Part shown: piece by piece, positions 4,054 through 9,272 of the stretch | Position numbering within the stretch: the stretch's first letter is position 1 | Layout of the letters: each line of letters opens with the position of its first letter | DNA from: Flavobacterium nitratireducens | GTDB lineage: Bacteria > Bacteroidota > Bacteroidia > Flavobacteriales > Flavobacteriaceae | DNA length: 64,000 nt | Reading direction: 5' to 3' | Assembly (NCBI RefSeq): GCF_029625335.1 | Contig: NZ_CP121111.1 | Span: 1,550,001-1,614,000, forward strand | Notes under the pieces: generated by a model | Databases searched by the model: none | Told to the model about the DNA's origin: nothing | Seen by the model: only the letters and a program-made list of their open reading frames with translations | Made by a program: the position numbers and the translations under genes

Positions 4054-5133
4054 TTATCCGTTGATAATTTTTTCTTGGTGTTCGATACTTTCTTGGTGAA
4101 TCGACTTGAATAGTTTAGTAATAAACTCTTCCGATAATCCTTTTTTAGCACCTTCAGCAACCATTTTTTCTTGGATTTCATTCCAACGAGTATTTTGTAA
4201 AACAGCTACGTTATTGTCTTTTTTCACTTGACCAATTTCGTCAGCTACTTTCATTCTTTTACCTAAAAGGTCTAACAAATTAGCGTCTAATACATCGATA
4301 TTAGCTCTTAATTTTGTCATTTTAGCCTCAAAATCGCTATCTCCGCTTACTTTTCTAATTTTCAAATCTTTCAAGATTTGTTTCAAAGCATCAGGAGTAA
4401 CTTGTTGTGCAGCATCAGACCAAGCATTATCTGGATCAATATGCGTTTCGATAATCATACCATCGTAGTTTAAATCTAAAGCTTCTTGTGTTACTTCAAG
4501 AATCATGTTACGATTACCTGTAATATGAGATGGATCGATAATTAATGGCAAATCAGGGAATTTATTTTGCAATTCGATAGCAATTTGCCATTCAGGAATG
4601 TTTCTGTATTTTGTTTTCTCATAAGTAGAGAAACCTCTATGAATAACTCCTAAATTTTTGATTCCAGCCATGTGTAAACGCTCAACACCACCTAACCATA
4701 AAGCCATATCTGGGTTTACAGGGTTTTTAACTAATACAATTTTATCAGTTCCTGCTAATGTATCAGCAATTTCTTGAACTGCAAAAGGGTTCGCTGTTGT
4801 ACGAGCACCTACCCATAATACATCAATATCATATTCTAAAGCTAATTTACAGTGAGCAGCAGTAGCTACTTCAGTCCCCATTAAAAGTCCTGTTTCTTCT
4901 TTAGCTTTCTTCAACCATTTCAATCCAATTTCTCCAATTCCTTCAAATCCTCCTGGACGTGTTCTTGGTTTCCAAATTCCTGCTCTAAATACGCTTACAT
5001 CAGAATTTTTTAATTCGTGAGCAATTTTCAATACTTGCTCTTCTGTTTCAGCACTACAAGGTCCTGCGATCACAAATGGATGAGACAAATTGAATGCGTT
5101 CAACCAATTTCTCATTTCTTTCTTGTTTTCCAT
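4054..5133 (-). CDS. Bifunctional 3-deoxy-7-phosphoheptulonate synthase / chorismate mutase
   Basis: This 359-residue fusion catalyses the first step of the shikimate pathway (PEP + erythrose 4-phosphate to DAHP) and the step from chorismate to prephenate. Residues 1 to about 265 are a type I-beta DAHP synthase without an N-terminal regulatory domain. Visible motifs are GPCSAET, GIWKPRTRPGGFEG, the KNPVNPD segment and IIDPSHITGNR. Residues from about 270 are an AroQ-type chorismate mutase helical bundle (R-A-N-I-D-V-L-D, LLGKRMKVADEIGQVK). Such synthase-mutase fusions are known in Bacteroidota, where the mutase domain also mediates feedback inhibition. Neither the neighbouring tyrA nor pheA carries a mutase domain, so this fusion presumably supplies prephenate to both. 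It is the last gene of the aromatic operon. Confidence 0.95.
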   Translation of the reverse strand: MENKKEMRNWLNAFNLSHPFVIAGPCSAETEEQVLKIAHELKNSDVSVFRAGIWKPRTRPGGFEGIGEIGLKWLKKAKEETGLLMGTEVATAAHCKLALEYDIDVLWVGARTTANPFAVQEIADTLAGTDKIVLVKNPVNPDMALWLGGVERLHMAGIKNLGVIHRGFSTYEKTKYRNIPEWQIAIELQNKFPDLPLIIDPSHITGNRNMILEVTQEALDLNYDGMIIETHIDPDNAWSDAAQQVTPDALKQILKDLKIRKVSGDSDFEAKMTKLRANIDVLDANLLDLLGKRMKVADEIGQVKKDNNVAVLQNTRWNEIQEKMVAEGAKKGLSEEFITKLFKSIHQESIEHQEKIING

Positions 5134-5182: not shown

Positions 5183-6040
5183 CTATTTTTTAACGCTTAT
5201 GCCGTTTAATATTTCCTTTATTTTATTCACACTCGCCATCTCATCATATATCGACTGATAATTATCCTGAACTAACAAATCTTTGAATTTTGTCAAATTA
5301 GAAATATACTCTTCTAATGATTCCAAAACTTGAGCCTTATTTTGTTCAAAAATAGGCGTCCACATGGCTGGCGAACTTTTAGCTAAACGCACCGTGCTTT
5401 CAAAACCGGAACCTGCCATATCAAAAATATCTTGTTCATCTTTCTCCTTATCAATTACCGTTTTACCTAACATAAAAGAACTAATATGCGACAGATGCGA
5501 AACATAAGCTATATGCTTATCATGCGACTTAGGATCCATATAACGAATACGCATTCCTAAGGTTTTAAAAACTTCCAACGCTTTTTCTTGCAATTTGAAA
5601 GCTGTTTTTTCTACTTCACAAATGATATTTGTTTTTCCTTTAAACAAATCCCTCAATGCTGCCGAAGGTCCAGAAAATTCGGTTCCGGCTATTGGGTGAG
5701 TCGCAATAAAATTTCTTCTTCTTGAATGTGTAGCTACCACTTCACAAATAGGATTTTTAGTCGAACCCACTTCTAATACAATCGCATTATCATTGATCAA
5801 ATCAAGCACTTTAGGTAATAAGCCAAGAGCCACATTTACTGGAACCGAGACAATGACAAAATCAGCAATTGCTAAATCATCCATTGTAGCAGCCTTATCA
5901 ATAACACCTAACTCTAATGCTTGTTGCAAATGCTTCTCGTTTGTATCAATCCCGTAAATTGTAGCTTCTGGATAATGTGCTTTGATGTCTAAAACCATCG
6001 AACCTCCTATTAATCCAATTCCTATTACAAATACTTTCAT
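5183..6040 (-). CDS. tyrA: Prephenate dehydrogenase
   Basis: This 285-residue NAD-dependent enzyme oxidatively decarboxylates prephenate to 4-hydroxyphenylpyruvate, the tyrosine branch. The Rossmann dinucleotide motif GIGLIGGSM is at residues 7-15. The catalytic and substrate segment THPIAGTEFSGP and the later HDKHIAYVSHLSH match the TyrA family. There is no chorismate mutase or ACT domain. It lies 4 bp downstream of the aminotransferase gene and 49 bp upstream of the DAHP synthase fusion, which supports one transcript. Confidence 0.95.
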   Translation of the reverse strand: MKVFVIGIGLIGGSMVLDIKAHYPEATIYGIDTNEKHLQQALELGVIDKAATMDDLAIADFVIVSVPVNVALGLLPKVLDLINDNAIVLEVGSTKNPICEVVATHSRRRNFIATHPIAGTEFSGPSAALRDLFKGKTNIICEVEKTAFKLQEKALEVFKTLGMRIRYMDPKSHDKHIAYVSHLSHISSFMLGKTVIDKEKDEQDIFDMAGSGFESTVRLAKSSPAMWTPIFEQNKAQVLESLEEYISNLTKFKDLLVQDNYQSIYDEMASVNKIKEILNGISVKK

Positions 6041-6044
6041 TTTA

Positions 6045-7190
6045 TTAAAATCTATCTATTGCTTCTTGTACTTTTTCTTCTTTCACACATAATGCAAATC
6101 GAATATATCCTTCTCCATTAGAACCAAAAATAGTTCCCGGTGCGATAAAAATATATTTCTCATGTAAAATCGTATCGATGAACTCCTCTGCCGATTGGAT
6201 TCCTTCCGGTAATTTTGCCCAAACAAACAATCCAACTCCTTCTTTATACACTTTACATCCTAATTTTTCAGCCAATTGTTCGGTTAAAACTCGGCGTTTT
6301 TTATAAATTTCATTCATGGAATCAAACCATGATTTATCACTTTTTAAAGCTTCGATAGCACCTTTTTGGATTCCATAGAACATTCCACTATCCATATTAC
6401 TTTTAACTCTTAAAACCGCATCAATCAATTCGGCATTTCCAGAAACCATTCCAACTCTCCATCCTGCCATGTTAAAAGTCTTGCTTAAGGAATTTAACTC
6501 CAAAGCTACTTCTTTAGCACCTTCAACCTGTAGCAAACTCATCGGACTATCGTTCAAAACAAAACTATACGGATTGTCATTCACTAATAGTATGTTGTTT
6601 TTCTTAGCAAAAGCTACTAACTTTTCAAACAAGGATAAACTTCCTCTGGCGCCTGTAGGCATATGCGGATAACCTATCCACATTAATTTCACTTTAGACA
6701 GATCTAATTTTTCTAATGCTTCAAAATCAGGCTCCCAATTATTACTTTCTTTCAAATCATAATACACAGCTTCTGCTCCTACTAAATTCGTAACCGAAGT
6801 ATAGGTAGGATATCCGGGATTAGGAATCAAAACCTGATCTCCTTCGTTTAAGAAAGCCAATGAAATATGCATAATACCTTCTTTAGACCCCATTAAAGGT
6901 AAAATCTCCGTATTCGAATTTAAGCTCACCTGAAAATTATTCATGTAAAAATCAGCTATGCTTTTACGCAACTCAGGTAATCCTTGATAACTTTGATACC
7001 CATGAGCATTTTCCTCTTGAATTGCCAAAGTTACAGCATCAATAACCGCCTGAGAAGGTGCTAAGTCAGGACTTCCAATTCCCATATTGATAATTGGTTT
7101 TCCCTCTGAAGCTAATTGTCTCACTTCTCTTAACTTCGATGAAAAGTAGTATTCCTCAACGGTATTTAATCTATTGGCTGTTGTAATCAT
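6045..7190 (-). CDS. Class I PLP-dependent aminotransferase of the aromatic operon
   Basis: This 381-residue fold-type I aminotransferase has the PLP-binding segment SLSKTFNMAGWRVG, with Lys237 as the Schiff-base residue. It also has NPGYPTY (124-130) and a C-terminal arginine segment (EGYIRFALCV) that would bind the substrate carboxylate. The usual YPNNPTG loop reads YPHMPTG. From its place between pheA and tyrA it most likely transaminates phenylpyruvate and 4-hydroxyphenylpyruvate. Related flavobacterial proteins are often annotated only as aspartate/aromatic-type aminotransferases, so the substrate is inferred from context. Confidence 0.88.
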   Translation of the reverse strand: MITTANRLNTVEEYYFSSKLREVRQLASEGKPIINMGIGSPDLAPSQAVIDAVTLAIQEENAHGYQSYQGLPELRKSIADFYMNNFQVSLNSNTEILPLMGSKEGIMHISLAFLNEGDQVLIPNPGYPTYTSVTNLVGAEAVYYDLKESNNWEPDFEALEKLDLSKVKLMWIGYPHMPTGARGSLSLFEKLVAFAKKNNILLVNDNPYSFVLNDSPMSLLQVEGAKEVALELNSLSKTFNMAGWRVGMVSGNAELIDAVLRVKSNMDSGMFYGIQKGAIEALKSDKSWFDSMNEIYKKRRVLTEQLAEKLGCKVYKEGVGLFVWAKLPEGIQSAEEFIDTILHEKYIFIAPGTIFGSNGEGYIRFALCVKEEKVQEAIDRF

Positions 7191-7266: not shown

Positions 7267-8103
7267 TTATTTCAACAAAGGCTTTGTATTTCGATACTCA
7301 CCTAAGATTTTAAAATATTCTGCCATAATGGCTAACAAGGATTTTGCTTTAGCAAAATCTTCATAATTCTCAAAAGTGACATCCACAAAAAAGGAATATT
7401 TCCAAGGAGTTTCAATTTTGGGCAATGATTGAATTTTGGTCAAATTCATTTTACAATCACTCATTACATTCAAAACCGCAGCTAAACTTCCTCTTTTATG
7501 ATCTAATTCAAATTTCATTGAAGCTCTGTTGATTTCATTTTCCGGAACAAACGAATTTTCTTTGTTAATAATCACAAAACGTGTCATATTATTTTTTATC
7601 GTTTGAATTTCTGGAGCTAAAATTTCTAAACCATACATCTCAGCGGCAACTTTACTCGCAATGGCAGCAACTCCTTTTAATTGGTTTTGCTGAATTCTTC
7701 TAGCCGTTTCAGCCGTATCCTTATCTTCAACTAGCTTAATATGGGGATATTGTTTTAAATAATCCATACATTGTAACAATGCCATCGGATGTGAATACAC
7801 TTCTTTAATGTCCTCAATTGTTTGACCTTTCAAAGCCATTAAATTTTGATGAATACTCAAATAATGTTCACCAATAATGTGCAAGTTATTTTTATCGATT
7901 AAGGCATAATTAGGAATAATGGGACCAGCGATAGAATTTTCAATTGCCATTACTGCTTGATTTGACTTTCCTGTCAACAAACTATCTACTAATTCATCAA
8001 AAGAAAGACACTCATCTACTACTACATCTTGTCCATAATACTCCTGAGCCACCTGATGATGAAAAGACCCTAAAATACCTTGTATCGCAATTTTTGTTTC
8101 CAT
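7267..8103 (-). CDS. pheA: Prephenate dehydratase with ACT domain
   Basis: This 278-residue enzyme converts prephenate to phenylpyruvate. The dehydratase part (about 1-180) has IAIQGILGSFHHQVA, the AIENSIAGPI segment and ASKVAAEMYGLEIL, with the family TRF motif in NNMTRFVII. The ACT domain from about 195 (HKRGSLAAVLNVMSDCKMNLTKIQSLP) has the GALA-like (GSLA) and ESLP-like (QSLP) sites through which Phe inhibits the enzyme. There is no chorismate mutase domain. It is the first gene of the aromatic operon, and a leader-peptide attenuator sits immediately upstream, its terminator ending about 6 bp from the ATG. Confidence 0.96.
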   Translation of the reverse strand: METKIAIQGILGSFHHQVAQEYYGQDVVVDECLSFDELVDSLLTGKSNQAVMAIENSIAGPIIPNYALIDKNNLHIIGEHYLSIHQNLMALKGQTIEDIKEVYSHPMALLQCMDYLKQYPHIKLVEDKDTAETARRIQQNQLKGVAAIASKVAAEMYGLEILAPEIQTIKNNMTRFVIINKENSFVPENEINRASMKFELDHKRGSLAAVLNVMSDCKMNLTKIQSLPKIETPWKYSFFVDVTFENYEDFAKAKSLLAIMAEYFKILGEYRNTKPLLK

Positions 8104-8109
8104 TTATTC

Positions 8110-8138
8110 AAAAAAAAATCCTGATTTTCATCAGGATT
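8110..8138 (-). terminator. Attenuator terminator in front of pheA
   Basis: On the minus strand AATCCTGAT, loop GAAA and ATCAGGATT form a perfect 9-bp stem followed by nine T residues. It ends just before the pheA ATG at 8103, so it terminates the leader transcript rather than a gene. Its left arm overlaps ACAATCCT (8140-8133), which can pair instead with AGGATTGT at 8192-8185. Confidence 0.9.
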
Positions 8139-8184
8139 GTATACTAGTTTTATTTGTTTATTTTAATTTTCAAATTACCATAGC

Positions 8185-8192
8185 ACAATCCT
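8185..8192 (-). promoter_or_regulatory. Antiterminator arm of the pheA attenuator
   Basis: AGGATTGT starts on the last base of the leader peptide's stop codon. It is perfectly complementary to ACAATCCT at 8140-8133. That pairing would use up the left arm of the terminator and allow read-through into pheA when the ribosome stalls at the Phe/Tyr codons upstream. Confidence 0.8.
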
Positions 8193-8248
8193 TATCTCTC
8201 GCTAAAGAAATAAAATGAATTGCTAAAATAAAAACGGTTATTTGACAT
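8192..8248 (-). CDS. Phe/Tyr-rich leader peptide of the pheA operon
   Basis: This 18-codon ORF reads MSNNRFYFSNSFYFFSER. Seven of its 18 residues are Phe or Tyr, in two clusters (FYF and FYFF), matching the two end products of the downstream operon. It lies about 43 bp after a consensus flavobacterial -7 box and is followed by an antiterminator arm and a terminator next to pheA. This is the layout of ribosome-mediated attenuation as in enterobacterial pheL. The peptide itself probably has no function; its translation senses charged tRNA-Phe and tRNA-Tyr. The ORF, its codons and the two exclusive hairpins are seen directly. The mechanism is inferred. Confidence 0.85.
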   Translation of the reverse strand: MSNNRFYFSNSFYFFSER

Positions 8249-8290
8249 CTTAAAGTATAAATTATCTTGAATTACTTTTTTTAACGCTGG

Positions 8291-8320
8291 CAAATTTATG
8301 ACAAAAATCCAATTACGCAA
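8291..8320 (-). promoter_or_regulatory. Promoter of the pheA leader transcript
   Basis: On the minus strand TTG (8320-8318), a 19-bp spacer and TAAATTTG (8298-8291) match the Flavobacterium consensus TTG-N19-TAnnTTTG. The leader RNA would be about 180 nt long. Confidence 0.8.
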
Positions 8321-8348
8321 AAAATATTTAAGTTTTTTTTATAAAAAA

Positions 8349-9272
8349 TTATCTTTTTACTCTCGTAGGAGTACTAACACCATTAATAATGCTATTTGAA
8401 CTTATAGCAATTGCTTTGATAATTTCTGACATATTATCCAAATCTAGCGTACTTACCTCATCAGACAACTTATGATAATTAGGTTCGATATCCATTTTTG
8501 AAGTAGAAATGGTATGCGCTGGAACCCCTAGAGCCGCCAGAGTTGCATTATCCGAACGATAAAATAAATTTTCAGCTGGATATGGGTCTGGATAGAACTT
8601 AAAATTAGATTGTGCTAAGTTTTGTTGCAAAATTGTTCCAAAACTAGATTTATCAAAACCGGTTATATAAGCCGAATTTTTACCCCACTTACTTTCAGTT
8701 CCAATCATTTCAATATTAAACATTGCCACTACCTTACTAGCATCGATACTTTTTGAAAATTCTTTCGAACCATATCCACCCACTTCTTCAGCAGTAAATA
8801 CAACAAAAACAATCGTTCTTTCATTTAATTTATTTTCCTTAAAATACTTTGCTAATGCAATTACAGCCGTTGTTCCGGAAGCATCATCATTAGCTCCATT
8901 GTATACCTTATCTTCTCCACTTTCAACCAAACCTAAATGATCATAATGAGCTGAAAATACCACATACTCATCGGCCTTACTTTTTCCAGGAAGTACTCCT
9001 ACCACATTATTCGCAGCTTTTCCTTTTATTTTAAACTCCTGACGGTAATTTTTTAAATCAGCATAAAATGAAAGACCAATATTCTTGAATTAATTTTCAA
9101 TAAAAGCGGAAGATTTTTCGATTCCAGCTGAAAACATCGCTCTTCCTTCCATCGCATCCTAAGCCAAAGCCTCTTCAATTCTTACGATATTATTCTTTTC
9201 AATTCCCGGAACATTCTGTGCCTGAGTAAGACAACCCAAAAAAGCAAATAGCAAAACACTTATTTTTCTCAT
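8349..9272 (-). pseudogene. M28-family metallopeptidase, broken by two in-frame stop codons
   Basis: The frame beginning at the ATG at 9272 encodes a Sec signal peptide (MRKISVLLFAFLGCLTQAQ) and then a full M28 aminopeptidase-like protein of about 307 codons. It is interrupted by TAG at 9161-9159 and TAA at 9092-9090, with no frame change. The first stop falls in the segment stop-DAMEGR, where relatives have LASDxMEGR. The intact remainder has the zinc ligands of the family: SAHYDHLG (His, Asp), NGANDDASGT, FTAEEVGGYGS (catalytic Glu pair) and a final NYHKLSDE. Without the N-terminus the product cannot be exported, so this is probably a dead gene. It lies divergently from gldA. Confidence 0.88.

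Follow-up and report, generated by a model that had tools for sequence, protein, structure and literature searches.

What sets the expression of the genes for aromatic amino acid supply in Flavobacterium nitratireducens? In the 64,000-nt stretch of DNA analysed here (the window), pheA is the first of four minus-strand genes, followed by an aminotransferase gene, tyrA and a gene for a DAHP synthase fused to chorismate mutase (Table 1). The gene 5′ of the leader and pheA, on the same strand, encodes an M28 peptidase according to Pfam. The window PheA scored under the cut-offs of the NCBIfam prephenate dehydratase models, and the fused protein scored under that of the NCBIfam bifunctional DAHP synthase/chorismate mutase model. 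Of 80 named loci, 74 had this gene order; for the remaining six, the first three genes were found within the fetched flank. The closest named record (L261, Flavobacterium sp. UBA6721) had a PheA and a leader identical to those of the window. An earlier note, made from the letters alone, had read the DNA in front of pheA as a leader-peptide attenuator, with a peptide whose Phe and Tyr codons would fit an operon that makes both amino acids, and the gene content does match Phe and Tyr supply. The mechanism of such attenuators is known from the enterobacterial pheL/pheA and trpL leaders.

Table 1. Features of the pheA leader and the aromatic gene cluster in the window
Feature	Position	Strand	Basis
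-33 element TTG, putative Bacteroidetes-type promoter	8318..8320	-	sequence; match to consensus
-7 element TAAATTTG, spacer of 19 nt after TTG	8291..8298	-	sequence
Leader ORF MSNNRFYFSNSFYFFSER + TAA (18 codons; ATG at 8248, TAA at 8194-8192)	8192..8248	-	sequence; score of at least 6 in 98/101 usable genus loci
First aromatic cluster FYF	8225-8233	-	sequence
Main control-codon cluster TTT TAT TTC TTT (FYFF)	8204..8215	-	sequence; aromatic columns kept in relatives
Region 2, antiterminator 5′ arm AGGATTGT	8185..8192	-	sequence; matches terminator arm across relatives
Region 3, antiterminator 3′ arm ACAATCCT	8133..8140	-	sequence; predicted fold with region 2
Terminator hairpin AATCCTGAT-GAAA-ATCAGGATT	8117..8138	-	sequence, genome-wide count, predicted fold, shuffle control
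Terminator sub-parts: AATCCTGAT; GAAA; ATCAGGATT	8138-8130; 8129-8126; 8125-8117	-	sequence
T-run, 7 T past the stem	8110..8116	-	sequence
pheA, prephenate dehydratase (ATG at 8103)	7267..8103	-	Pfam PF00800, 197.6 bits
Class I/II aminotransferase	6045..7190	-	Pfam PF00155, 215.8 bits
tyrA, prephenate dehydrogenase	5183..6040	-	Pfam PF02153 and PF20463; NCBIfam NF006307 above cut-off
DAHP synthase fused to chorismate mutase	4054..5133	-	Pfam PF00793 and PF01817

The elements that the earlier note had described were located on the minus strand: the putative promoter TTG-N19-TAAATTTG, the leader ORF with five Phe and two Tyr codons and no Trp codon, AGGATTGT, whose first base is also the final one of the stop codon, and its complement ACAATCCT, which overlaps the 5′ arm of the terminator. 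The hairpin also lies where it had been placed; its run of nine T has to be divided, with two T in the stem and seven after it. The gap from the T-run to the pheA ATG is 6 nt. The genome (2.99 Mb) has a single copy of the 22-mer that forms the terminator. Folding of the leader RNA was suggested together with the original reading; set against 200 dinucleotide shuffles, the predicted structure was more stable than 198 of them (z -3.36). TTG and TAAATTTG match the consensus of a Bacteroidetes-type promoter and are its putative elements. Promoter scores of 8-9 out of 9 were found for 65 of 98 genus leaders and scores of 7-9 for 88, counts that have no shuffled baseline. In 20 genus loci inspected by eye, TAnnTTTG/TTCG/TTAG-like variants lay about 18-42 nt 5′ of the leader ATG. 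A strict search for TAnnTTTG matched 43 of 98 genus loci and 49 of 490 mononucleotide shuffles; 22 of the 43 matches lie 100 nt from the ATG and are thus unlikely to be promoters.

Conservation of the leader ORF was scored as the number of aromatic residues within 14 codons, where the window itself scores 7, and loci were oriented by tblastn before the upstreams were read. A PheA match was found in 103 of 150 genomes of the genus, and one upstream was taken from each, in genome G069 that of the PheA fragment bearing the N-terminus; two were too short, leaving 101 usable. Among these, 97 scored at least 7 and 98 at least 6. The three misses (L101-L103) have a divergent PheA (41-46% identity), and no leader was found in their upstreams. 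The other 47 genomes had no match to the window PheA; some genomes are incomplete. In the family sample, 186 of 199 genomes matched, two of them belonging to the genus, and 88 loci of the remaining 184 were read. The 28 strongest matches were taken, along with 60 chosen by hand down the match list, so the weakest matches are under-sampled in the result that 87 of 88 scored at least 7. At the single miss, L189, a repeated stretch with GGCGGGAT hairpins was seen by eye at the expected leader site upstream of pheA. The aromatic codons whose conservation the earlier note had proposed to check are kept in most genus loci and in further genera of the family.

The class search matched 72 of 247 genomes, and 68 loci were read, six of them from the same family as the window; the other four were G000 and G060, which had been counted before, G463, a match without the N-terminus, and G295. 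Scores of at least 6 were reached in 46 of the 68 and of at least 7 in 39. When only other families of the class are considered, 40 of 62 loci scored at least 6, and 34 of 62 had a leader with a terminator (16 of 26 families). The 22 loci below 6 include all eight of family f13, which have no leader. At least family f17 is undercounted because its leaders (L146, L153, ...TYFWFYP...) score 5 and were tallied as misses. At L139, L140 and L142, ORFs rich in Trp (WPW) were considered as Trp leaders and rejected: judged by eye, the stretch directly 5′ of pheA appears to be aroA-like coding sequence, and these loci were therefore counted as misses. In the phylum search 172 of 198 genomes matched, and outside the class only the two best-matching loci were taken. 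Each has a leader, with a score of 10 at L362 and 8 at L364, and by eye a hairpin with a T-run comes next; as these loci were chosen by PheA similarity, two of two gives no rate. As judged by comparison, the putative leader device reaches far beyond the genus Flavobacterium. Among the 80 named loci, 79 scored at least 6, and the sole miss (L262) has just 37 nt upstream. The record named F. johnsoniae strain CI04 (L279) also has such a leader. Dinucleotide shuffles reached 7 in 25 of 505 genus, 13 of 440 family and 3 of 340 class-search upstreams, and 19 of the 340 class-search shuffles reached 6. In the antisense control, 7 was reached in 1 of 101, 1 of 88 and 1 of 68, respectively. Since 25 of 505 genus shuffles reach the score of the window, an aromatic-rich ORF alone says little in AT-rich DNA.

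A terminator follows the leader in 224 of the 231 leader loci: 98 of 98 in the genus, 86 of 87 in the family and 40 of 46 in the class search. The same finder placed one in 10 of 490, 22 of 435 and 12 of 230 shuffles, respectively, and it was blank at L129, L149, L155, L241, L244, L245 and L250. By sequence, the leader is accompanied by the putative intrinsic terminator that a leader-peptide attenuator calls for. In a rival reading, the hairpin or the ribosome on the leader would govern how accessible the pheA ATG is instead of ending transcription, and the 6 nt between T-run and ATG in the window would suit such translational control. We regard it as highly unlikely, however, because at the loci examined individually the distance from the hairpin end to the inferred gene start ranges from 7 to 100 nt while the hairpin and its T-run are kept, which fits termination.

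The earlier note had held that the antiterminator and the terminator share an arm and are mutually exclusive. Over 224 loci, the mean duplex energy between region 2 and the terminator arm was -13.36 for the locus's own pair, -9.05 for swapped pairs and -6.12 for shuffled ones. The exact five-base complement of a row's own arm class was present in 120 of 164 distinct rows, compared with 57 of 1312 for other classes, which bears the claim out; 44 rows lacked the exact complement, and 11 lacked even a wobble one. In the genus and family, the core of the first terminator arm falls into four main five-base classes. Class ATCCC is matched by GGGAT after the leader in 42 of 49 rows, GTCCC by GGGAC in 29 of 32 and ATCCT by AGGAT in 25 of 29, and class GTCTC has GAGAC in 23 of 41 rows and the wobble-capable GAGGC in 12. 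Small classes fared more poorly (GTCCT 1/6, GTTCC 0/3, GCCTC 0/2). Independent pairs drawn on the PheA tree of genus and family numbered 2, 1 and 1 on supported branches; they agreed in direction, but such small numbers do not allow a test. On this tree the covariation forms clumps, and few evolutionary events lie behind the class counts.

Outside Flavobacteriaceae, with one locus per family, native pairs averaged -15.0 kcal/mol and deranged pairs -10.5, and the native set beat the deranged pairings in 2000 of 2000 draws; 0 of 2000 derangements matched it. A locus's own pairing was favoured in 15 of 16 families, in f36 by just 0.1 kcal/mol, and f61 went the opposite way. An independent alignment gave 71.1% standard pairs for the own rows, compared with a mean of 66.5% and a best of 68.0% among 1000 row shuffles, and 61.0% Watson-Crick pairs compared with 54.8% for the best shuffle. 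This alignment understates the pairing because the GTCTC class lies one base out of register, and for that reason the register-free tests were used instead. The earlier note had tied its reading to conservation of the short ORF and of the alternative pairing, with covarying stems, in relatives; both are conserved, and the pairing covaries across families.

The position of the arm relative to the ORF is constrained as well. In all 120 exact-arm rows, the region 2 arm begins 7-14 nt past the last aromatic codon. The ORF runs on beyond the arm before its stop codon in 101 of these rows; in 17 the stop codon and the arm overlap, and in 2 the stop codon comes first. Under every one of these layouts, the arm would be covered by a ribosome at the stop codon or lie next to it. 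In the genus consensus, the bases after region 2, about TATGGTTATTTGA (window ~8170-8184), are conserved beyond the antiterminator core. This stretch is coding (RDCxMVI) in most genus leaders, and the ORF has already stopped before it in the window and its nearest kin, where its conservation is not accounted for by the attenuator model.

Unexplained conservation of this kind, together with a structured leader that ends in a terminator, could point to a riboswitch or a T-box-like RNA, in which binding of a small molecule or tRNA would control the terminator and the ORF would be incidental. We give this reading very little credence. At gathering thresholds Rfam has two matches in the window, neither of them at the leader, and a permissive scan of 8050-8400 gave ten matches, all far under the cut-offs and none of them a riboswitch or T-box; no T-box was among the gathering matches of the whole window. 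Moreover, the reading frame and the aromatic codons are kept, with an ATG start in 230 of 231 leaders (ties in the choice of ORF favoured ATG). Chance, meaning Phe/Tyr codons in AT-rich intergenic DNA beside the terminator of the upstream gene, has a probability close to nil, for although TTT and TAT are common in such DNA and shuffles do reach the window's score, the arrangement is conserved across families, its arms covary, and the ORF sits between promoter and terminator.

To follow how the leader peptide and the alternative hairpins could work together, the window leader was folded in stages, assuming that the ribosome covers 12 nt beyond the A-site codon. With the ribosome at FYFF, the antiterminator is predicted to form at -14.1 or -12.6 kcal/mol before the last arm of the terminator appears. 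With the ribosome at the stop codon, no structure (0.0) is predicted before the last arm, and then the terminator at -11.4. For the complete leader with no ribosome, a pairing with region 2 plus the terminator is predicted, and just before the last arm the predicted ribosome-free fold still holds the antiterminator. The putative protector (1:2) stem between the control codons and region 2 had an energy of -8.93 in its own context, -7.45 when swapped and -6.92 when codon-shuffled, a slight excess over the controls. Once the last arm is present, the terminator is favoured at equilibrium in all states tried, even with a stalled ribosome (-16.2). The switch must thus be kinetic, and according to these models the outcome must depend on when polymerase and ribosome reach their positions.

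Taken together, the cluster is very probably controlled by a ribosome-mediated transcription attenuator that sets its expression by the charging of tRNA-Phe and tRNA-Tyr, and in many relatives of tRNA-Trp. RNA polymerase would start about 35-40 nt 5′ of the leader ATG, as the promoter suggests, with a ribosome following. With an ample supply of aromatic amino acids, the ribosome would reach the stop codon and cover AGGATTGT, so that the arm around ACAATCCT would be free for the terminator and transcription would end ahead of pheA. Under a shortage of Phe or Tyr, the ribosome would wait in the FYFF cluster and leave AGGATTGT exposed; this would pair with ACAATCCT ahead of the terminator's second arm, and transcription would continue. 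The parts, their conservation and the cross-family covariation are established by comparing sequences, which in the conserved ORF, pairing and terminator favours the attenuator interpretation of the earlier note. From this anatomy we infer that the leader is translated, that ribosome and polymerase are coupled, and in which direction the switch responds.

In relatives, the control-codon columns remain aromatic, with variable third bases and frequent synonymous and F/Y/W swaps. Phe and Tyr are both present in all 231 leaders scoring at least 6, a score that itself favours them. Trp codons occur in 35 of the 98 leaders from the genus, in 58 of 87 from the family and in 16 of 46 from the class search, and in 34 of the 98 genus leaders Trp is the last codon of the cluster. 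The label Phe/Tyr that the earlier note had given holds for the window; with Trp codons in 58 of 87 leaders from other genera of the family, it is too narrow for the group. Synthesis of Phe, Tyr and Trp alike begins with DAHP synthase, and since the cluster encodes this enzyme, Trp sensing makes sense and may be a property of the relatives' leaders.

The leader resembles the enterobacterial attenuators in its short ORF rich in product codons, in the arm shared between antiterminator and terminator, and in the gene that comes right after. It differs from them in carrying Phe and Tyr codons, in many relatives also Trp, and in the placing of the antiterminator arm, which in 118 of the 120 exact-arm rows of relatives falls within the ORF or shares bases with its stop codon. 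The Rfam Phe_leader model (RF01859) reached only 20.7 bits (E 0.36; gathering 55 bits) and only over 8110-8163. The Bacteroid-trp RNA (RF01692), a Trp leader of another operon than that of pheA, had no match at gathering in the window, nor any with E up to 10 in 8050-8400. It was described as a likely cis-regulatory RNA of Bacteroidetes (PMC2864571), and short ORFs resembling leader peptides were reported within long 5′ UTRs of B. thetaiotaomicron (PMC7366714). Closest to the present finding is a 2021 study of F. psychrophilum (PMC9723704), in which 5′ elements of pheA and hisG were conserved in other genera of Flavobacteriaceae and Rfam-negative, and strong clues for leader-peptide attenuation were noted 5′ of amino acid operons. 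Its structured pheA element concerns the same gene and family as the window leader, and credit is due there. Its section on these elements gives neither peptide, codons and antiterminator nor a range beyond the family; relative to that section, the present analysis adds the leader peptide with the Trp codons of its relatives, the covariation of the antiterminator and the wider range. Searches limited to openly licensed PMC papers gave no further paper on this leader.

The same genome contains further candidate leaders. Near 513900 on contig C1 (L341), a His-rich leader MLSNQLHHHHLHYCSQAIC lies at -176 to -116 of hisG, with a terminator-like hairpin and T-run after it by eye. Near 549800 on C1 (L344), a GTG-started Ile/Val-rich leader MKNSIILVSVINVIVVTTSA precedes an ilvD-family gene, again followed by a terminator-like hairpin by eye. 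These leaders with hairpins count in favour of the attenuator reading at pheA. No leader was found in the upstream of a second ilvD-like gene (L345), and none could be made out with clarity ahead of thrA and trpE. As a separate observation, two classes of SAM riboswitch lie ~1.1 kb apart in the window. RF00162 (30374-30480, minus strand, 72.1 bits) precedes a gene that is acyltransferase-like by eye and one with a homoserine dehydrogenase domain, and the SAM-II riboswitch RF01726 (31625-31728, plus strand, 51.2 bits) lies before a gene that looks by eye like metK.

The pheA leader may serve to sense a shortage of aromatic amino acids, and it represents an RNA family with no match from Rfam release 15 in the window. 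We give even chances to a broader proposal, namely that all these attenuators are one ancient device of the Bacteroidota, responsive to Phe and Tyr and, across many lineages, to Trp, and that the upkeep of its pairing by covariation over deep divergence would mean tight coupling of ribosome and RNA polymerase in the leaders of this phylum. To our knowledge, the coupling of transcription and translation has hardly been examined in Bacteroidota, and a putative attenuator present in many families of the phylum would offer a concrete and easily mutated test of it.
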